From NCBI GenBank assembly GCA_016223045.1, contig JACRPT010000135.1, positions 1 to 54,659 on the forward strand: a DNA stretch of 54,659 nucleotides. Direction: 5' to 3'. Each line of letters opens with the position of its first letter. Positions within the stretch are counted from its first letter, which is position 1. Made by a program: the position numbers and the translations under genes. The notes under the pieces were generated by a model. It had not been told where the DNA came from. It saw only the letters and a list, made by a program, of their open reading frames with translations, and searched no databases. The stretch comes from Candidatus Eiseniibacteriota bacterium (lineage in GTDB: Bacteria > Eisenbacteria > RBG-16-71-46). Positions 2,420 through 44,900 of the stretch are shown one piece after another.

Positions 2420-3963
2420 GGAGCTCGCAGCAGCCCGCGCACGGCGCGGCCCGCGGCGCCACGCCCGAGCCGCTCCGCGTCCTCATCGTCGAGGACGTCC
2501 CGGCCGACGCCGAGCTGATGGTCCACGAGCTGCGGCGCGCCGGCTACGCGCCGTCGTGGGCCCGCGTGGACACCGAGGCCGACTACCTCGCCCGCCTCGA
2601 CCCGGGCCCCGACGTGATCCTCGCCGATTACCGCCTGCCGGGGTTCGATGCGCTGAGCGCGCTCTACCACCTCGAGGTGCGCGGCCTCGACATCCCGTTC
2701 CTGATCGTGAGCGGTGCGATCAGCGAGGAGGCCGCGGTGGCGTGCATGAGGCTCGGCGCCGCCGACCACGTGCCCAAGGACCGCCTGATGCGCCTCGGCC
2801 AGGCGGTGGCGCGCGCGCTCGAGGAGAAGCGCCGCCGCGCCGAGAAGGAGCGCGCCGAGCACGCGCTGCGCGAGAGCGAGGAGCGCTTCCGGCTGCTGGT
2901 CGAGGGCGGCGAGGACTACGCCATCGTGATGCTCGACCCCGACGGACGCGTGGTGAGCTGGAACCCGGGCGCCGAGCGCATCCACGGCTACACCGCCGAG
3001 GAGATCCTCGGCCAGCCGTTCGCGCGCTTCCACACGCCCGAGGACGTCGAGCGCGGCAAGCCCGAGCAGGAGCTGGAGGTCGCCGCCACCGAGGAGCGCT
3101 ACGAGGACCGCGGCTGGCGCGTGCGCAAGGACGGGACGCGCTTCTGGGCCGACGTGGTGATCACCGCGCTGCACCACGAGAGCGGCGAGCTGCGCGGCTT
3201 CTCCAAGGTCACGCGCGACATCACCGAGCGCCGCCGCGCCGAAGAGGCGCTGGCGCGCCAGTCGCAGGAGCTGGCGCGCGCGCACGCCGAGCTCGAAGTG
3301 TTCACGCACGTGGCCTCGCGCGACCTGCGCGAGCCGCTGCGGGCCATCGAGGCGGCGGCGCGCCGGCTCGCGGAGCGACGGGATGGACGCGCCGACGTGG
3401 AGCTCGAGGCTTCCGCTGCCGGCATCCTCGACGCCGTGGCGCGCATGCAGGGGCTGCTCGACGAACTGCTCGCCTACTCGCGCGCGGGCTCGGGCGGCAG
3501 CGCGTTCGTGGCGACCGACTGCGGCGCCGTGCTCGACGCCGCGCTCGCGAGCCTGAGGGCCGACATTGAGGCGAGCGGCGCGCGGATCACGCGCGGGCCG
3601 CTGCCCGAGGTGACCGCCGATTCCGGGCAGCTCGTCCAGCTCTTCCAGAACCTGATCGCGAACGCCATCCGCTACCGCGGCAGCGCCGCGCCCGAGGTGT
3701 GCGTCACGGCCGGGCGCGAGGGTGGCGCCTGGCGCTTCCGCGTGCGCGACAACGGCCCGGGCATCCCGCCCGGGCTGGGCGAGCGCGTGCTCCAGCTGCT
3801 GCCGCGGGCGCGCGCCGGCGCCGACGGGCGCGGCTCCGGCATCGGGCTCGCGATCTGCCGCACCATCGTCGAGCGCCACGGCGGGACGATCGGGTTCGAC
3901 TCCGAGCCCGGCCGCGGCACGACCTTCTGGTTCACGCTCCCCGAAGGCCCGCACGACGCGTGA
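2416..3963 (+). CDS. REC-PAS-histidine-kinase-like protein lacking the phospho-accepting His
   Basis: The 515-residue cytoplasmic signalling protein has these domains in order: a receiver at about 20-140 (acceptor Asp in ILADYRLPGF), a coiled linker, a PAS domain at about 155-280 (FRLLVEGGEDYAIVML to TRDITERRRAEE), a dimerisation helix pair at about 290-370, and an ATPase domain to the end with N-box QNLIANAIRY, DNGPGIPPG and GSGIGLAI. In this phytochrome-like kinase class the H-box normally reads ASHDLREPLR. Here it reads ASRDLREPLR, so Arg302 (codon CGC at 3319-3321) replaces the acceptor His, while the ATP site looks intact. It may be a pseudokinase or act through other residues. It is coupled by ATGA to the regulator upstream. 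Confidence 0.88.
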   Translation: MRSSQQPAHGAARGATPEPLRVLIVEDVPADAELMVHELRRAGYAPSWARVDTEADYLARLDPGPDVILADYRLPGFDALSALYHLEVRGLDIPFLIVSGAISEEAAVACMRLGAADHVPKDRLMRLGQAVARALEEKRRRAEKERAEHALRESEERFRLLVEGGEDYAIVMLDPDGRVVSWNPGAERIHGYTAEEILGQPFARFHTPEDVERGKPEQELEVAATEERYEDRGWRVRKDGTRFWADVVITALHHESGELRGFSKVTRDITERRRAEEALARQSQELARAHAELEVFTHVASRDLREPLRAIEAAARRLAERRDGRADVELEASAAGILDAVARMQGLLDELLAYSRAGSGGSAFVATDCGAVLDAALASLRADIEASGARITRGPLPEVTADSGQLVQLFQNLIANAIRYRGSAAPEVCVTAGREGGAWRFRVRDNGPGIPPGLGERVLQLLPRARAGADGRGSGIGLAICRTIVERHGGTIGFDSEPGRGTTFWFTLPEGPHDA

Positions 3964-14991: not shown

Positions 14992-16794
14992 ATGCGACCC
15001 TCCCCCCTCGATTCCAGCGGAGGCCGTTTCCGCAGCCGGGACCTGGTCCCCTTCGGCCCGCGGCGTCATCCGCGACCGCGTCCGTTCCTCGAGATGATCC
15101 AGGTGGCGTGGGAGAACCGGGACAACCTGCCGTACGCGTGGCGCATCCTCACCCGCGGCGTCTGCGACGGCTGTTCGCTCGGGCCGCGCGGCCTCCGGGA
15201 CGACGTCATCACCGGCGTCCACCTGTGCATGACGCGCCTGAAGCTCCTCCGCCTGAACACCATGGGCCCCGCGCCCGAGGAGCGCCTGAGCGACCTCGGG
15301 GCGCTGCGCGCGCTGTCGAACGAGGAGCTGCACCGGCTCGGGCGGCTGCCCTTCCCGCTGGTCCACCGCGCGGGGAGCGACACGCTCCACCGCCTCTCGT
15401 GGGACGAGGCGCTCGGCATCATCGGCGAGGCGCTGAGCGGCGTGCCGGGCGAGCGCATGGGTTTCTTCGCCACCTCGCGCGGGATCGTCAACGAGACCTA
15501 CTACGCGTTCCAGAAGGCGGCGCGGCTGCTGGGCAGCAACCACGTGGACCTGTGCGCGCGGCTCTGCCACGCGGCCAGCGTGCTGGGACTCAAGGACACG
15601 CTCGGCGTGCCGGCGCCCACCTGCTCGCTCAAGGACATGATCGGCAGCGACCTGGTGGTGATCATGGGCTCGCACCTCTCGAACAACCAGCCGGTCACGA
15701 CCAAGTACCTCACCTACGCGAAGCGCCGGGGCACGCGCATCCTGGTGGTGAACCCGATGCGCGAGCCGGCGCTCGAGCGCTACTGGGTGCCGAGCGACGT
15801 CCGCAGCGCCCTGTTCGGCACCAGGCTCATGGACGACTTCTTCCAGGTCGCGGTGGGCGGCGACATCGCGTTCATGAACGGCGTGCTCAAGCACCTGCTC
15901 GAGCGGGACTGGTGGGACCGCGAGTTCGTCGCCGGGCGCACGGCCGGCTTCGACGAGGTGAGGGCTCACGTCGAGTCGCTGGCGTGGCCCGAGCTGGAGA
16001 AGGCCGCGGGCCTCGCGCGCGCCGACATGCTGCGCTTCGCCGAGTGGTACGCGAAGGCGCGCACCTGCGTGTTCGTCTACTCGATGGGGCTCACCCAGCA
16101 TCGCTTCGGCGTGGACAACGTGAAGGCGCTGGTCAACCTGGCGCTCGCGCGCGGCATGCTGGGGCGCGAGAAGTGCGGGATCATGCCGATCCGCGGCCAC
16201 TCGGGCGTGCAGGGCGGCGGCGAGTGCGGCGTGGACCCGGAGAAGCTGCCGGGCGGCTTCGAGGTGGCGAGCGAGCCGGACCGCCGCCGCTTCGAGGAGC
16301 TGTGGGGCGCGCCGATCCCGGCGTGGAAGGGACACCGCACGCTGCAGCTGCTCGAGGCCGCGCACCGCGGCGAGGTGGACTTCCTCTACTCGCTGGGCGG
16401 CAACCTGCTCGAGACCATGCCCGACCGCGCCTACATGGCGGACGCGCTGGCGCGCGTGAAGCTGCGGGTGCACCAGGACATCGTCCTGAACACCTCGTCG
16501 CTGCTCCCCGGGCGCACCGTGATCCTGCTGCCGGCGCAGACCCGCTACGAGACGCCGGGCGGCGGCACCGCGACCAGCACCGAGCGGCGCATCCGCTTCA
16601 CGCCCGAGATCCCGGGGCCGCGCATCGCCGAGGCGCACCCCGAGTGGAAGATCCCGGTCGAGGTCGCGGTGGCCGCGCGGTCCGGGCTCGCGCCGCTGCT
16701 GGCGTGGCGGGAGCCGCGCGAGATCCGCGCGGAGATGGCGCGCGCCATGCCGCTCTACGGCGGCGTCGAGCAGCTCGAGCGCGCGGGCCAGTGA
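14992..16794 (+). CDS. FdhF/YdeP-family molybdopterin oxidoreductase, main part up to an in-frame TGA
   Basis: The 600 residues resemble formate-dehydrogenase-alpha-like proteins of the YdeP group, which bind bis-molybdopterin and have no proven substrate. Visible are a cysteine cluster GVCDGCSLGPRGL followed by HLC, the domain LSWDEALGIIGEAL, the active-site region CARLCHAASVLGL with Cys in the place where formate dehydrogenases have Cys or Sec, PIRGHSGVQGGGECG, and GGTATSTERRIRF. The frame stops at TGA 16792-16794 within the family's LxxxGxxVQWGG region and continues in the same frame to 17337. The gene is therefore interrupted by nonsense, or the two parts are made separately. A weak -10 (TACCCT) lies about 15 bases before the start. 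Confidence 0.8.
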   Translation: MRPSPLDSSGGRFRSRDLVPFGPRRHPRPRPFLEMIQVAWENRDNLPYAWRILTRGVCDGCSLGPRGLRDDVITGVHLCMTRLKLLRLNTMGPAPEERLSDLGALRALSNEELHRLGRLPFPLVHRAGSDTLHRLSWDEALGIIGEALSGVPGERMGFFATSRGIVNETYYAFQKAARLLGSNHVDLCARLCHAASVLGLKDTLGVPAPTCSLKDMIGSDLVVIMGSHLSNNQPVTTKYLTYAKRRGTRILVVNPMREPALERYWVPSDVRSALFGTRLMDDFFQVAVGGDIAFMNGVLKHLLERDWWDREFVAGRTAGFDEVRAHVESLAWPELEKAAGLARADMLRFAEWYAKARTCVFVYSMGLTQHRFGVDNVKALVNLALARGMLGREKCGIMPIRGHSGVQGGGECGVDPEKLPGGFEVASEPDRRRFEELWGAPIPAWKGHRTLQLLEAAHRGEVDFLYSLGGNLLETMPDRAYMADALARVKLRVHQDIVLNTSSLLPGRTVILLPAQTRYETPGGGTATSTERRIRFTPEIPGPRIAEAHPEWKIPVEVAVAARSGLAPLLAWREPREIRAEMARAMPLYGGVEQLERAGQ

Positions 16795-17337
16795 GTGCAG
16801 TGGGGCGGCGAGCGGCTCTTCACCGACGGTTTCAGCCGCATGCCCGGCGGCCGTGCGCGCTTCGCCTGCGTGCCGCTGCCGCGCGTCGAGGTGCCGCCCG
16901 GGAAGTTCTACCTCACTACCCGGCGCGGGAGACAGTTCAACAGCATGAGCCACGGCGGGCGCGATCACCTGATGGGCGGCGCGACCCGGCGCGACGTGCT
17001 CATCAGCCCGGCCGACGCCGCGCGCGTCGGTGCGCGCGCGGGCGCCGAGCTGCTGCTCACCTCCGAGGTCGGGACGTGGGTCGGCGTGGCGCGCCTCGCG
17101 CCCATGAAGGAGCGCTGCCTGCAGGCCTACTGGCCCGAGGTCAACGTGCTGATCCCGCGCGCCTTCGATCCGGTCTCGGGCGAGCCCGACTACAACACGT
17201 TCGTGACCGCCGAGCCGGTGCTGCCGGTGGCGGGCATGACGCCGGCGCGGGTGGAGGAGCCGGCGCAGGCCGTGGCCCAGCCCGCGATGGCGCACGCGAT
17301 GGAGCGCGCGCTCAAGCCCCAGCCGGAGGGGCGATGA
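16795..17337 (+). CDS. C-terminal dinucleotide-binding part of the same molybdopterin oxidoreductase
   Basis: The 180 residues continue the previous gene in the same reading frame directly after its TGA, starting with a GTG that abuts the stop. It contains QWGGERLFTDGFS, GKFYLTTRRGRQFNSMSHG and VLISPADAARVGARAGAEL, which form the C-terminal molybdopterin dinucleotide-binding domain normally covalent with the upstream part. No clear ribosome site precedes the GTG, so separate translation would rely on re-initiation at the stop. The stop at 17335-17337 overlaps the ATG of a mini-ORF copied from the next gene. Confidence 0.75.
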   Translation: MQWGGERLFTDGFSRMPGGRARFACVPLPRVEVPPGKFYLTTRRGRQFNSMSHGGRDHLMGGATRRDVLISPADAARVGARAGAELLLTSEVGTWVGVARLAPMKERCLQAYWPEVNVLIPRAFDPVSGEPDYNTFVTAEPVLPVAGMTPARVEEPAQAVAQPAMAHAMERALKPQPEGR

Positions 17338-17479
17338 CGGCCCGCCTCGCCATCCTGACCGGGCTGTCGCCCACGCTCGCGGCGCGAGCCTCCGCGCTCC
17401 AGCCGGAGGCGCGATGACGGCGCGCCTCGCCATCCTGGCCGGTCTTCTGCTCGCGCTCGCGGCGCGCGCGGCGGGCGCG
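17320..17479 (+). repeat. tandem duplication of the DUF547 gene start, forming a 27-codon mini-ORF
   Basis: Two 80-base copies begin at 17320 and 17400, each running from the ribosome site (GCCGGAGG) through ATG and the first signal-peptide codons; roughly 85% of bases match over the first 70. The first copy is open from ATG 17334 to TGA 17415-17417 (MTARLAILTGLSPTLAARAS and seven more residues). Its ATG overlaps the stop of the upstream gene, and its TGA overlaps the true ATG at 17414. The copy therefore forms a translationally coupled leader ORF. Confidence 0.8.
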
Positions 17480-18265
17480 GCCACGCAGCCGCTGCCCTCG
17501 TCCGACGGCTGGCAGAAGCTGCTGCGTGACTACCTGGTCGTCACCTCGGCAAGGGGCGCGCCGCTCGAGACGCGCTTCGCCTACGCGCGGCTCGCCACAG
17601 CGCGCGACGGGCGGGAGCGGCTGGCGCGCGTCCGTGCCGAGCTGCTCTCGGTGCCGCCCGCGAAGCTGGACGACCGCGCGCGGCTGGCGTGGGCGATCGA
17701 CGCCTACGACTTCCTGGTGATCGAGAGCGTGATGGAGTTCCTGCGGCACCCCGGCGGCGCCCGGTACCGCAGTGTCCGCGACATGGGCGACTCGGCGGGC
17801 ACGTTCTTCGAGCGGCCGGTGGCCGAGATCGCGGGGAAGAAGTACTCGCTGAACGCCTTCGAGGAGGCGTTCGTGTTCCCGTGGCGGCAGAAGTCCGCAC
17901 AGCCGCCCTCGCGCTGGGCGATGGACCCGCGCGCGCACTTCGCGCTGGTCTGCGCCGCGGCGGGCTGCCCGCCGCTCTCGCCGCGCGCCTACCTGCCCGA
18001 CTCGCTGGACGCGCAGCTCGACCGCGCGGTGCGCGACGCGCTGGCGAGCCCGCGGCACCTGCGCTGGAACGAGGCCACCGGCGCCCTCGAGGCGAGCGAG
18101 ATCTTCGAGTGGTACGCGTGGGACTTCAAGCCGCTCGACGAGATGCTGCGGTTCATCGCGGACCACGCGCCGCCCGCGGTCAGGGACGGGATGCTGCGGA
18201 AGAAGGTCGCGCGCGTCACGCGCTACATCCCCTGGGACTGGACGCTGAACCAGGCGCCGCGGTAG
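17414..18265 (+). CDS. exported DUF547 protein
   Basis: The 283-residue protein has a signal peptide (LAILAGLLLALAARAAGAA) and a DUF547 domain. Recognisable blocks are WAIDAYDFLVIESV, SLNAFEEAFVF, DPRAHFALVCAAAGCPPLSPRAYLPDSLDAQLD and EIFEWYAWDF. The CAAAGCPP and DPRAHFALVC motifs are the family core. The fold is thought to be papain-like, but no reaction has been established that I can name. The start is chosen over the upstream copy at 17334 because only the frame from 17414 continues into the domain. Confidence 0.85.
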   Translation: MTARLAILAGLLLALAARAAGAATQPLPSSDGWQKLLRDYLVVTSARGAPLETRFAYARLATARDGRERLARVRAELLSVPPAKLDDRARLAWAIDAYDFLVIESVMEFLRHPGGARYRSVRDMGDSAGTFFERPVAEIAGKKYSLNAFEEAFVFPWRQKSAQPPSRWAMDPRAHFALVCAAAGCPPLSPRAYLPDSLDAQLDRAVRDALASPRHLRWNEATGALEASEIFEWYAWDFKPLDEMLRFIADHAPPAVRDGMLRKKVARVTRYIPWDWTLNQAPR

Positions 18266-22437: not shown

Positions 22438-23892
22438 GTGGAGCCGCTCGACCTGCTGGTGATCGGCGGCGGCATCACCGGGCTCGGGGTCGCGCGGCTC
22501 GCTGCGCGCAACGGCCTCTCGATCGCCGTGCTCGAGCGCGCCGACCTCGCGTCGGGCGCATCCAGCGCCTCCAGCCACATGCTCCACGGCGGGCTGCGCT
22601 ACCTGGAGCACGGGCGCATCGGGCTGGTGCACGAGGCGCTGCGCGAGCGGGCGGCGGTGAGCCGTATGGCGCCGGGGCTGGCGAAGCCGACGCGCTTCCT
22701 GGTCCCGCTCTACCGCGGCGGGCGCGTGCCGCCGTGGAAGCTGCGCCTCGGCCTGTGGCTCTACGACGCTCTCGCCACCGGCTCCGGCTTCGAGCGCCAC
22801 GGCTGGCTGGGCGCGCGCGCGGCCCGCGCGCTGGAGCCCGCGCTCGAGCCGCGCGGCCTGCGCGGCGCGGGGCTCTACGCCGACGCGGTGATGGACGATG
22901 CGCGGCTCGCCGTGGCGGTGGCGCGCGACGCCGCCCGACACGGCGCGCAGGTCCACACCTGGACCGAGGTGACCGGCGCGCGCCCCGCTACCGGGGGTGC
23001 GGTCGTGCTGACCGCGCGCGACCGGGTGGAAGGCGGCGAGCGCTCCTTCGTCGCGCGGGCCGTGGTGATCGCGGCGGGACCGTGGACCGACCAGGTGCGC
23101 GCCCTGCTGGCGCGCGGGCTGAGCCCCGGCCGGCCCGAACCGGCACCGCTGCTCCGGCCGTCGCGGGGCACGCACCTCGTCTACCCGCGGCTCACCGAGG
23201 AGAACGGGCTCCTGCTCATCGCGGGTTCCGACGGGCGCGCGTTCTTCGTGGTGCCGTTCGCCGGGCGCTCGCTGGTGGGCACCACCGAGGTCGAGGTGCC
23301 CTCGCCCCCGCCGCCCGAGGCGTTCCGCCCGACGCTCGAGGAGGTGCGCTACCTGTCGAGCGAGCTGGCGCGCGCCCTGCCGGCGGCCGCCGGGCAGCGC
23401 CCGCTCGCGGCCTGCGCCGGCGTGCGCCCGCTGCTGCGCGGCGCGCAGGCGGTGGGCCGCGCCCCGCGCGAGCACCGCGTCCTCGCGGACGGCCCGCTGG
23501 TCACCGTGGCGGGCGGCAAGTACACCACCTTCCGCGTCATGGCGCGCGACGCCCTCGCGCTCGCCGCGCGCCGGCTCGGGCGCGGACGCTGGGAGCCGGA
23601 CGACGACGATGCGCCACTCCCGGAGCCGTTCGAGACGCGCGTCGGCGCCACCGCGCTCGCCGCGCACGCGGCGCGCGAGGAGTTCGCGCGGCGGCTCGAG
23701 GACGTGATGCGCCGCCGCACCGCGCTGTGGCTCGAGGAAGACCGCGGCCGCGCGGCGGCACCGGCCGCCGCCGAGGCGATGGCGCGCACGCTCGGCTGGG
23801 ACGAATCACGAACGCAAGACGAGATCCGCAGTTACGACGAAGCACTGCGTGAGGAGGAGTCGCTCCTCCACCGCGCACTGGAGGCCCGATGA
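22438..23892 (+). CDS. glpD: FAD-dependent glycerol-3-phosphate dehydrogenase
   Basis: The 484-residue flavoenzyme would oxidise sn-glycerol-3-phosphate to dihydroxyacetone phosphate, passing electrons to the quinone pool at the membrane. The FAD fold is at the N-terminus ([21 protein letters not shown]), followed by [19 protein letters not shown], a GlpD signature. Later come [38 protein letters not shown] and [13 protein letters not shown]. The C-terminal DAO-associated domain is short and acidic-basic. GTG start at 22438. The stop overlaps the ATG of a mini-ORF that duplicates the start of glpK, and glpK follows. Confidence 0.92.
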
Positions 23893-24046
23893 GGCGCTCG
23901 CTCGTCCTCGCCGTGGACCAGGGCACCACCGGCACCACGGCTCTACTGCTCGACCGCCGTCCGCAGGAGGCCCGATGAAGCGCTCGCTCATCCTTGCCGT
24001 GGACCAGGGCACCACCGGCAGCACGGCGCTCCTGCTCGACCGCCGT
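23881..24046 (+). repeat. tandem duplication of the glpD end / glpK start, forming a 29-codon mini-ORF
   Basis: An 86-base unit starting GAGGCCCGATGA is repeated from 23881 and 23967. The first copy encodes a 29-residue ORF (23889-23978) beginning [20 protein letters not shown], nearly the true GlpK start [20 protein letters not shown]. Over the first 24 codons only 6 of 72 bases differ, two of them at third positions. The mini-ORF begins on the glpD stop (ATGA) and ends on the glpK ATG (ATGA), so glpD, mini-ORF and glpK are coupled in series. Confidence 0.88.
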
Positions 24047-25471
24047 GGCGGCGTGCGTGCGCGCGGCTACGCCGAGCTGCCCCAGCACTTCCCGCGCCCC
24101 GGCTGGGTGGAGCACGACGGCGACGAGATCTGGGAGAGCGTGCGCGCCGCGGTGCGCGCCGCCCTGCGCGCGGCGCGCGCCGACGGCTCCGCGGTCGCCG
24201 CCATCGGCATCACGAACCAGCGCGAGACTACGCTGCTGTGGGACCGCAAGAGCGGCCGGCCCGTGATGCGCGCCATCGTGTGGCAGGACCGGCGCACGGC
24301 CGGACGCTGCCAGGAGCTGAGGCGCGAGGGCTTCGAGCGCGAGGCGCGACGGCGCACCGGGCTGGTGCCCGACCCCTACTTCTCGGCGACCAAGCTCGAG
24401 TGGATGCTCCGCCACGGCGCCGGCCTCGCGGCGCGCGCGCGGCGCGGCGCGCTGGCGTTCGGCACGGTGGATTCGTGGCTGCTGTGGAAGCTCACGGGCG
24501 GCGCCACGCACGCCACCGATCCCACCAACGCCTCGCGCACGCTGCTCTTCGATCTCCGGCGCCGGCGCTGGGACGATGCACTGCTCGCGCGCTTCGGCGT
24601 GCCGCGCGCCGTGCTGCCCGAGGTGCGACCCTCGAGCGGCGCGTTCGGCGTGACGCGCGGTGTCGGGCTCCTGCCCGACAGCATCCCGATCGCCGGCGTC
24701 GCCGGCGACCAGCAGGCCGCGCTGTTCGGGCAGGGCTGCGTCGCCCCGGGGCAGTCCAAGAACACCTACGGCACCGGCTGCTTCCTGCTGCTCCACACCG
24801 GTGCGAAGCCGGTGGCGTCGCGCTCCGGCCTCCTCACCACCGTGGCCTGCGGCGCGCGCGGCGAGCCCGCCTACGCGCTCGAAGGCAGCGTCTTCATCGC
24901 CGGCGCCGCGCTCCAGTGGCTGCGCGACGGACTCGAGATCCTCAGGAGCGCCGCCGAGAGCGAGAAGCTCGCAGCCAGCGTGCCCGACGCGGGCGGCGTG
25001 GTGATGGTGCCGGCGTTCGTCGGGCTCGGCGCGCCGCACTGGCGCCCCGACGTGCGCGGCGCGCTGCTGGGCCTCACGCGCGGCACCACGCGCGCCCACG
25101 TCGCGCGCGCCGCGCTCGAGTCGCTGGCATTCCAGTCGCGCGACCTGGTCCAGGCGATGGAGCGCGACGCCGGCCGGCGGGTCCGCACCCTGCGCGTGGA
25201 CGGCGGGGCCGCCGCCAACGACCTGCTCATGCAGTACCAGGCGGATCTATTGGGCATCCCGGTCGAGCGCCCGCGCGTGATCGAGACCACTGCGCTGGGG
25301 GCCGCGCTGCTGGCCGGGCTCGGCACGGGCTTCTGGCAGTCGCACCGCGACCTCGACCGCGTCCGCCAGGTCGAGCGCGTGTTCCGGCCGGGGAAGTCGC
25401 GCGCGTGGCGGGAGGCGGAGGTCGCGCGGTGGAAGCGAGCGGTGGGGATGCTGCTCGACAGGAGGCCGTGA
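23975..25471 (+). CDS. glpK: glycerol kinase
   Basis: The 498-residue FGGY-family kinase phosphorylates glycerol with ATP to glycerol-3-phosphate, the substrate of the GlpD upstream. Motifs: ATP-binding loop [60 protein letters not shown], the FGGY signature segment [22 protein letters not shown], and the adenosine motif [15 protein letters not shown]. The ATG at 23975 is chosen because the copy at 23889 leads only into the mini-ORF. No GlpF facilitator is seen next to it. Confidence 0.95.
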
Positions 25472-42398: not shown

Positions 42399-44900
42399 TT
42401 ACTGGAAGTGCACGATCTTCCTGGCGTCCGCGACGCGCCCGGCCTGCAGCCGGCACAGGTAGACGCCGTTCGGCAGCCCGCGTCCGCTGAGCTCCACCTG
42501 GTGCGGGCCCGCGCCGAGGAATTCGTTCCGGACCGGCGTGCCCACCTCGCGCCCAGCGGCGTCGAAGACGCGCAGCGTCACCTGCTCCGCGGCCGGCAGC
42601 ACGAAGCGGATCGCGGTCGAGGCGCGGAACGGGTTCGGCTGGTTCGGGCGCAGGAGCGCGATCCGGCCGTCCCGTCCGGCGCCGGGAACGCCACCGGGTG
42701 CGGCGGCCGTGTTGATCTCGACCGCCGCGAAGTAGGTCTGCGGGAGGCCCTTGATGGTGGTGAACGCGCCGCCCGCGAACACCGTGGTCCCGGTCACCGC
42801 CAGGGCGTAGACGGAGCTGTTCGCGTTGGGATTCCAGGCGGTGGCCGTGCCCGTCGCCGCGTCCAGCTCCGCGATGCGATTGCGCGCCTGTCCCCCGACG
42901 GTCGTGAAATCCCCGCCGGCGAACACCGAGGAAGGGCCCAGCGCCAGGGCGCGCACGTAGCCCGACGTGCTCGCGTTCGGGTTCCATGCGGTGGCCAGCC
43001 CGCTCGCCGCATCCAGCGCCGCGATGTAGTTCCGGGCCTGGCCGCCGATCCCGGTGAACAGCCCGCCCGCGTAGACCGTCGCCCCGCTCACCGCCAGCGC
43101 CTCCACCTCGCCGTTCGGATTGGGGCTCCAGGTCGTCGGCGCGCCCAGCGAATCGCTGATGTCCAGCGCCGCGAGGTTGTAGCGCGGCACCGCCCCGTCA
43201 ATCACGGAGAAGTGTCCGCCCACGTACAGCGTGGTCCCGTCCACCGCCAGGCAGGAGACGCTCGGCACGGGGCCGATCACGCCCGGGTTCCCGGGAGCGA
43301 GCTGCCCGGTCGTGGCGTCCAGCGCCGCGAGGCAGCCGCGCGGCTGCCCGCCGATCGTGGTGAACTCCCCGCCCACGTACACGGTCGCGCCGCTCGCGGC
43401 CAGGACGTTCACACGCTTGTTGGGAATCGCCGTCCAGGGGATGGCCAGGCCGGTCGTGGCGTCCAGCCCCGCCAGGTAGCTCCGCGCCTGCCCGCCGATG
43501 GTGGTGAACTGGCCGCCGGCGAACACCCTCGCTCCGCTCACCGCCAGCGCGTCCACCTCGCCCCCGCTCGCGCCCGGATTCCACGAGGTGGCGCGCCCGG
43601 TCAGGGCGTCGAGCGCCGCGATGTTGCTCCGCGCCGTCCAGCCGACGCCCGTGAGGGACCCGCCCAGGAAGACCTCTCCCCCGCGCACCGCGAGCGTCTT
43701 GACGCTGCCGTTCGCGCCCGTGCTCCAGCCCGTGAGCAGGCCGCTCGTGTCCCACGCCGCCGCGTAGTCCCTCGGCTGCCCCCCGGCGGTCACGAAGCTC
43801 CCGCCCGCGTAGATCGTCGGCCCGCTGATCGCCAGCGCCGAGACCGTCCCGTTCGGGCCCGGGTTCCACGGCCTGGCCATGGCGGTAGTCGCGTCCAGCG
43901 CCGCGAGATTGCTCCGCGAAAACCCGCCGATGCTGCTGAAGCTCCCGCCCGCGTAGATCGTCTGCCCGTCCACCACCAGGGCATTCACGGTGCTGGACGA
44001 GACCGGGTCCCAGGGGGTGGGCAGCCCGGTCGTCACATCCAGGGCCGCGAGGTAGCTCCGGGCCAGCCCGCCGATGCTGGTGAAGATCCCGCCGATGTAG
44101 AGGGTCGTCCCGCTCGACGCCAGAGAATAGACGGCCCCGTTCGCGCTGGGGAGCCAGCTGGCAGCCAGGCCGGTCGTGGCGCTCACGCCGGCCAAGTTGC
44201 TCCTCGACTGCCCGCCGACCATGCTGAAACTGCCGCCCAGGTAGATCGTGCCCGCATCCACGAGCAGCGCGTTGACGGTGCCGCTGACATTCGGGTTCCA
44301 GGCGGTGGCCGAGCCGGTGGTCGCATCCAGCGCCGCGAGGTTGTTCCTCGTCTGCCCGCCGATGTTGCTGAAGCCCCCACCCGCGTACACCGTGCTCCCG
44401 CTCGGCGCCAACGCGTACACCGTGCCGCTGGCGTTGGGCGCCCAGGCCGAGACGGTGTGGTCCGCGAGGATCCGCGCGATGTTCGTGCGCGTGAGCCCGC
44501 CGACCGCCGAAAAGCTGCCGCCGATGTACCAGCCGCCGGCCCCATCGGGCGCCGCGGCGTAGACGGTGCCCGCGATCAACGGGAACCCGGTCACGACGGG
44601 CATGGCCGTCACCGAGTCGAGCACGACGCCCGCGCCCGTTACGGGTCCCAACTTGCTGAAGCTCCCGCCGACGTAGAGCGTGCCGCCCGACAACGCGACC
44701 GAGCGCACGGCCCCGTTGGTCGCGAAGAAGTCCTGCCGGATGCTCTGCGCGTGCGTGGAGGTGGCACTGCACGAGACCGCAGCGGCGATGGCGAGCAGCA
44801 GGAGGACGCGAGGCGCGACAGCGTGGAGCGCCGCCTCGCGCGAGCGGCGAACGAACCGCGGGAGGCTCTCTCTTCCGACGTCTCTCGACCGCGGCGTCAT
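42399..44900 (-). CDS. secreted 14-repeat beta-propeller protein with C-terminal sorting domain (paralogue)
   Basis: The 833-residue protein is a paralogue of the one at 37816-40317: a signal segment (VLLLLAIAAAVSCSATSTHA), 14 repeats of the same kind (LYVGGSFSKLG to VFAGGAFTTIKG, each followed by NIAALDATTGxATxWNP), and the sorting domain (QPNPFRASTAIRFVLP, VFDAAGREV, GVYLCRLQAGR). It is more regular and much more GC-rich than its twin. The ATG at 44900 follows GGGGAAGAG. It converges with the GWxTD gene. The ligand or role is unknown; adhesion or binding is plausible. Confidence 0.88.
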   Translation of the reverse strand: MTPRSRDVGRESLPRFVRRSREAALHAVAPRVLLLLAIAAAVSCSATSTHAQSIRQDFFATNGAVRSVALSGGTLYVGGSFSKLGPVTGAGVVLDSVTAMPVVTGFPLIAGTVYAAAPDGAGGWYIGGSFSAVGGLTRTNIARILADHTVSAWAPNASGTVYALAPSGSTVYAGGGFSNIGGQTRNNLAALDATTGSATAWNPNVSGTVNALLVDAGTIYLGGSFSMVGGQSRSNLAGVSATTGLAASWLPSANGAVYSLASSGTTLYIGGIFTSIGGLARSYLAALDVTTGLPTPWDPVSSSTVNALVVDGQTIYAGGSFSSIGGFSRSNLAALDATTAMARPWNPGPNGTVSALAISGPTIYAGGSFVTAGGQPRDYAAAWDTSGLLTGWSTGANGSVKTLAVRGGEVFLGGSLTGVGWTARSNIAALDALTGRATSWNPGASGGEVDALAVSGARVFAGGQFTTIGGQARSYLAGLDATTGLAIPWTAIPNKRVNVLAASGATVYVGGEFTTIGGQPRGCLAALDATTGQLAPGNPGVIGPVPSVSCLAVDGTTLYVGGHFSVIDGAVPRYNLAALDISDSLGAPTTWSPNPNGEVEALAVSGATVYAGGLFTGIGGQARNYIAALDAASGLATAWNPNASTSGYVRALALGPSSVFAGGDFTTVGGQARNRIAELDAATGTATAWNPNANSSVYALAVTGTTVFAGGAFTTIKGLPQTYFAAVEINTAAAPGGVPGAGRDGRIALLRPNQPNPFRASTAIRFVLPAAEQVTLRVFDAAGREVGTPVRNEFLGAGPHQVELSGRGLPNGVYLCRLQAGRVADARKIVHFQ

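Follow-up and report, generated by a model that had tools for sequence, protein, structure and literature searches.

Tandemly duplicated stop/start junctions and candidate relay mini-ORFs in a genome of Candidatus Eisenbacteria

Two duplicated gene junctions

The window, i.e. the whole stretch of 54,659 nucleotides that was analysed, makes up contig C107 in full; the metagenome-assembled genome to which it belongs measures 3.88 Mb. On its forward strand a molybdopterin oxidoreductase frame (14992..17337; Pfam Molydop_binding at the C-terminus) is followed by the gene of a DUF547 protein of 283 amino acids (17414..18265; Pfam PF04784, E=7.9e-15). At their junction an ungapped comparison of positions 17319-17398 with 17399-17478 revealed an 80-bp tandem pair, identical at 63 of the 80 positions, and TRF called the repeat at 17319-17466 with a period of 80, 1.9 copies and 88% matches. 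A GGAGG, a 4-nt ATGA and the opening codons of the DUF547 gene are present in both copies. In copy 1 (17319..17398, forward strand) the GGAGG lies at 17325-17329 and the ATGA at 17334-17337, and its signal-peptide-like codons are degraded. The corresponding elements of copy 2 (17399..17478, forward strand) are found at 17405-17409 and 17414-17417, the latter being the true start of the DUF547 gene. The oxidoreductase frame terminates at the TGA at 17335-17337, inside the ATGA of copy 1. From this ATGA a mini-ORF of 27 codons (17334..17417, forward strand), which translates as MTARLAILTGLSPTLAARASALQPEAR followed by its stop, reaches copy 2; at each end the overlap amounts to 4 nt, of its start with the upstream stop and of its TGA with the DUF547 start. 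An earlier note on this DNA had described both the repeated unit and the doubly overlapping mini-ORF. TRF and translation bore this out, and the layout was right, with the positions one base off.

Within the oxidoreductase gene an in-frame TGA at 16792-16794 breaks the frame into 600 + 180 codons. At this position a Trp is found in the relative L004 and a Ser in the relative L003, and the TGA is either a nonsense mutation or a sequence error. When the contigs of the genome were searched with DUF547, no match was obtained.

The same layout, as the earlier note had stated, was found at a second gene. A GlpD-like, FAD-dependent glycerol-3-phosphate dehydrogenase (22438..23892; Pfam DAO, DAO_C) precedes the glycerol kinase gene glpK (23975..25471; Pfam FGGY_N/FGGY_C), both on the forward strand; the closest named genomes for GlpK are Candidatus Eisenbacteria, with 76 and 74% identity. 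Here, at 23880-24046, TRF and ungapped comparison gave an 86-bp tandem pair on the same strand; the full units are identical at 75 of 86 positions. Copy 1 (23880..23965) spans the glpD/glpK junction with GGAGG at 23880-23884 and ATGA at 23889-23892, and copy 2 (23966..24051) carries GGAGG at 23966-23970 and, at 23975-23978, the ATGA of the true glpK start. The mini-ORF between them (23889..23978, forward strand) has 29 codons and overlaps its neighbours at both ends as in the DUF547 case.

Order-3 Markov controls yielded no tandem duplication in 518 kb at a threshold that both units exceed, in agreement with the earlier view that such repeats are not due to chance. Nor are the window units a simple collapse or expansion of the assembly, which is ruled out by their divergence of 10-20% and by their different flanks. 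An in-frame alternative start or N-terminal extension was rejected for the two window cases, as neither 80 nor 86 is divisible by 3.

Recurrence and reading-frame phase in the genome

The genome was sampled as stretches amounting to 1.99 Mb (51% of the genome), in which genes were called with a simple in-house codon-model caller, also the source of the gene starts, and tandem duplications were sought. This sample contained six further gene starts with the mini-copy layout, at unrelated genes and with repeat distances of 80 bp (L102), 44 bp (L042), 41 bp (L034), 56 bp (L158), 56 bp (L128) and 80 bp (L068). L158 holds three GTGA copies and two mini-ORFs of 19 codons, and additional chain steps were seen at L102 and L068. 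The scan suggested in the earlier note, for gene starts that recur upstream at a distance of 3n+2, thus returned eight cases in 1.99 Mb. The eight distances (80, 86, 80, 44, 41, 56, 56 and 80) are all 3n+2 and none is 3n+1 (p=0.004, or p=0.016 without the window cases); the phase p-values of this study range from 0.003 to 0.03 on small numbers. When the search was anchored on upstream ATGA/GTGA stops, and was therefore blind to the downstream frame, the distances fell into the classes 0, 1 and 2 modulo 3 as 4/0/8.

Duplications elsewhere in the sample showed other phases. Within genes, 29 of 30 were multiples of three. The 34 intergenic TRF arrays (28-150 bp) had periods distributed as 5/13/16 and showed no 3n+2 bias like that of the junctions. 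Outside the window four junction duplications were observed where random placement predicts 1.7, a modest excess (p=0.09). A lower number of indels in junction repeats than in intergenic repeats was considered as a sign of selection and rejected, as TRF shows no difference.

For adjacent, co-directional gene pairs in the sample that lie 20-119 nt apart and have RTGA at both ends of the gap, the spacing modulo 3 was 9/6/26, versus 26/18/27 for control pairs with an upstream stop of CTGA, TTGA, TAA or TAG, at which -4 coupling is impossible (Fisher p=0.008).

The genes downstream of the duplicated junctions are functionally diverse according to Pfam and sequence inspection, and include DUF547, glycerol kinase, an O-antigen ligase, a transporter permease, a TetR protein and an ABC ATPase. 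Copy 2 has retained its own Shine-Dalgarno sequence in several cases (GGAGG at both window junctions, and L068); a clear one was not kept everywhere (L042, L158).

In the same sampled half of the genome 48 gene pairs are joined by at least one RTGA-chained mini-ORF, above phase chance and mostly without a repeat. Genuine small genes or wrongly called starts may account for some of these links, and eroded ancient duplications for others.

Other repeats were noted in passing. Perfect or near-perfect tandem duplications of 35 bp (L045, 2727-2801) and 49 bp (L077, 7559-7660) disrupt the reading frames of a SelB-like gene and a TonB-receptor-like gene, respectively, by a frameshift, and in one of 51 bp (L036, 565-670) the beginning of an IstA-like gene is repeated in frame, the genes being named by eye; these three are either recent mutations or assembly errors. 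Long in-frame arrays of 144-bp repeats (L033, 15842-17371; L113, 769-1936) probably encode repeat-domain proteins, and a 150-bp repeat in the window (42821-43097) resembles them. One entire 2.2-kb contig (L096, 1-2173; G008 C5) is a perfect 12-bp tandem repeat.

Relatives and other genomes of the phylum

The duplications are a derived state. In L003 the molybdopterin oxidoreductase and DUF547 genes are joined by a direct ATGATG overlap and the repeat is absent, as it also is at this junction in L004. Likewise, L161 has glpD-glpK with a direct ATGA overlap and without a repeat. In L160 (approx. 2910-3020; G010 C53) the glpD/glpK junction has separately been triplicated in frame, with a unit of 36 bp. 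From the direct overlaps of the relatives and this independent triplication we concluded that more than one duplication event has occurred at one junction.

A motif consisting of a ribosome site and RTGA, occurring twice (GGAGG), was searched for in 47 genomes of the phylum and gave 9 and 5 matches, versus 0 and 1 in the reversed control; a looser motif gave approx. 44 matches. Where the two ribosome sites were alike, as expected of duplicates, the distances were 4/2/12 modulo 3, i.e. 12 of 18 at 3n+2, versus 18/8/8 for dissimilar pairs, i.e. 8 of 34 (Fisher p=0.003). The 3n+1 exceptions among the duplicate-like matches were found in G028 (31 nt) and G030 (40 nt), and three-copy cases in G021 (44 bp), G030 (35 bp) and G010 (32 bp). 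The flanking genes were covered for G000 and G010, and the motif itself for the other genomes of the phylum. The strict short-gap motif occurred in 8 of the 47 genomes, versus 4 of 398 Pseudomonadota, 2 of 49 mixed genomes and 5 of 111 genomes of another phylum, figures that are uncorrected for base composition and GGAGG use. No tandem duplication of non-3n length was present in the sequence sampled from the relatives G003 (240 kb) and G008 (114 kb).

Candidate relay cistrons and competing explanations

Termination-reinitiation coupling occurs at -4 nt ATGA/GTGA overlaps (PMC6728339, PMC10666635), and every link of the relays described here is a standard overlap of this type. What differs from the known coupled pairs is that a duplication-born mini-ORF, which is probably not itself a gene, lies between the two genes and putatively carries the coupling over 40-140 nt. 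Judging from the sequences, we consider it probable that ordinary short tandem duplication is filtered by the reading frame and that the 3n+2 survivors persist as relay cistrons. Tandem duplications of about 30-90 bp are common in this genome and sometimes span a 4-nt ATGA/GTGA overlap. The upstream gene then still terminates in copy 1, and a start for the downstream gene remains available in copy 2, one unit length away. In a unit of length 3n+2 the copied start codon leads directly into the TGA of the ATGA or GTGA of copy 2, and a ribosome could terminate the upstream gene, reinitiate on the mini-ORF, terminate again and reinitiate on the real gene with the coupling preserved. In a 3n+1 unit the copied start would be read out of frame across the real start, and in a 3n unit it would append residues to the protein. 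The predominance of 3n+2 survivors would thus result from selection against these two outcomes. We infer selection on the coupling, and also that the mini-ORF would be translated and of importance.

In reporter work reinitiation was nearly lost beyond a stop-start distance of about 20-38 nt (PMC10666635). For this reason a gap of 76 nt without a relay should break the coupling, and a duplicated junction lacking one would probably uncouple the two genes. Reinitiation over longer gaps has been found in other studies, as far as these are cited in PMC10666635. Where a strong GGAGG persists in both copies, initiation at the real gene may be independent of the relay. The codon differences between copies comprise 20 nonsynonymous and 13 synonymous changes; since nonsynonymous changes are common, the peptide of the mini-ORF is not strongly kept and is probably non-functional. 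A regulatory leader peptide was rejected on the same counts and as no peptide is common to the loci.

Neutral survival is an unlikely explanation, though it has several observations in its favour. Junction copies would then harm neither gene, the mini-ORF would be inert and the phase pattern would be small-number luck. Intergenic tandem duplications are indeed abundant, the excess of junction cases over random placement is modest and the Shine-Dalgarno sequence is often intact in copy 2. Such luck would however have to explain a 3n+2 bias that is seen here, elsewhere in the phylum and in the RTGA-RTGA spacing, but is absent at intergenic duplications and at uncoupled stops.

A translation booster under positive selection, in which the mini-cistron and its ribosome site would tune or raise the output of the second gene and the repeats would multiply through this benefit, appears less probable still. 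The anatomy resembles bicistronic designs (BCD), engineered cassettes at the operon start in which a short first cistron has a ribosome site, contains a second one and ends in a stop that overlaps the real start (e.g. PMC5995908). At the DUF547 junction there are likewise two ribosome sites (GGAGG at 17325 and 17405), the second of them inside the mini-ORF, whose stop overlaps the next start. Unlike BCDs, the cases here are natural, lie within operons and are fed by an upstream gene. The chains of three copies (L158, G021, G030 and G010) and the separate triplication at glpD/glpK would also suit a booster, but the downstream genes share no common function.

A mobile repeat family that inserts into stop/start overlaps, as proposed for the mycobacterial MIRUs, is highly improbable. 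According to the accounts of Supply 1997 in PMC12548453 and PMC2734929, MIRUs occur where a stop meets a start, as tandem units of 40-100 bp that hold an ORF with -4 nt coupling, and form a single, apparently mobile repeat family at about 41 scattered sites. The type of site, the size of the units and the arrangement of the overlaps match (PMC12548453): the tandem units found here measure 41-86 bp, lie between co-directional genes and have an ORF joined to its neighbours by -4 overlaps. However, no single sequence is dispersed over many loci; each copy duplicates the start of the local gene. A DNA search of the own genome and blastn of all units gave only low-complexity or chance-level matches between the eight loci, and a mobile family was rejected. 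An artefact of metagenome assembly is just as improbable, for although the perfect 35-51-bp repeats at L045, L077 and L036 break or extend genes and could be misassembly, the relay units diverge at 7-27% or more of their positions, their flanks differ and the layout recurs in independent genomes.

The recurrence supposed in the earlier note is thus supported, with eight cases here and more across the phylum. The dedicated system that it suggested is not: none is needed, since tandem duplications are common outside reading frames, units from separate loci bear no relation to one another, and frame geometry together with selection accounts for the 3n+2 distance. In the open-access literature, with most subscription journals outside the search, no earlier account of junction-derived tandem duplications with a phase rule was found.

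For annotation, caution is advised, as such mini-ORFs are probably not genes. With frame filtering as the preferred reading, a unit length of 3n+2 at an ATGA/GTGA overlap is suggested as the rule for short duplications that an operon tolerates, and local copying alone as an origin of tiny coupled ORFs. More tentatively, and with somewhat less than even confidence, junction duplication may be a recurrent route to relay cistrons in Candidatus Eisenbacteria, in which a reinitiation-selected 3n+2 rule would decide the survivors and many of the 48 mini-ORF links would be worn-down remnants. The pattern suggests, separately from reporter assays, that selection keeps termination-reinitiation coupling.
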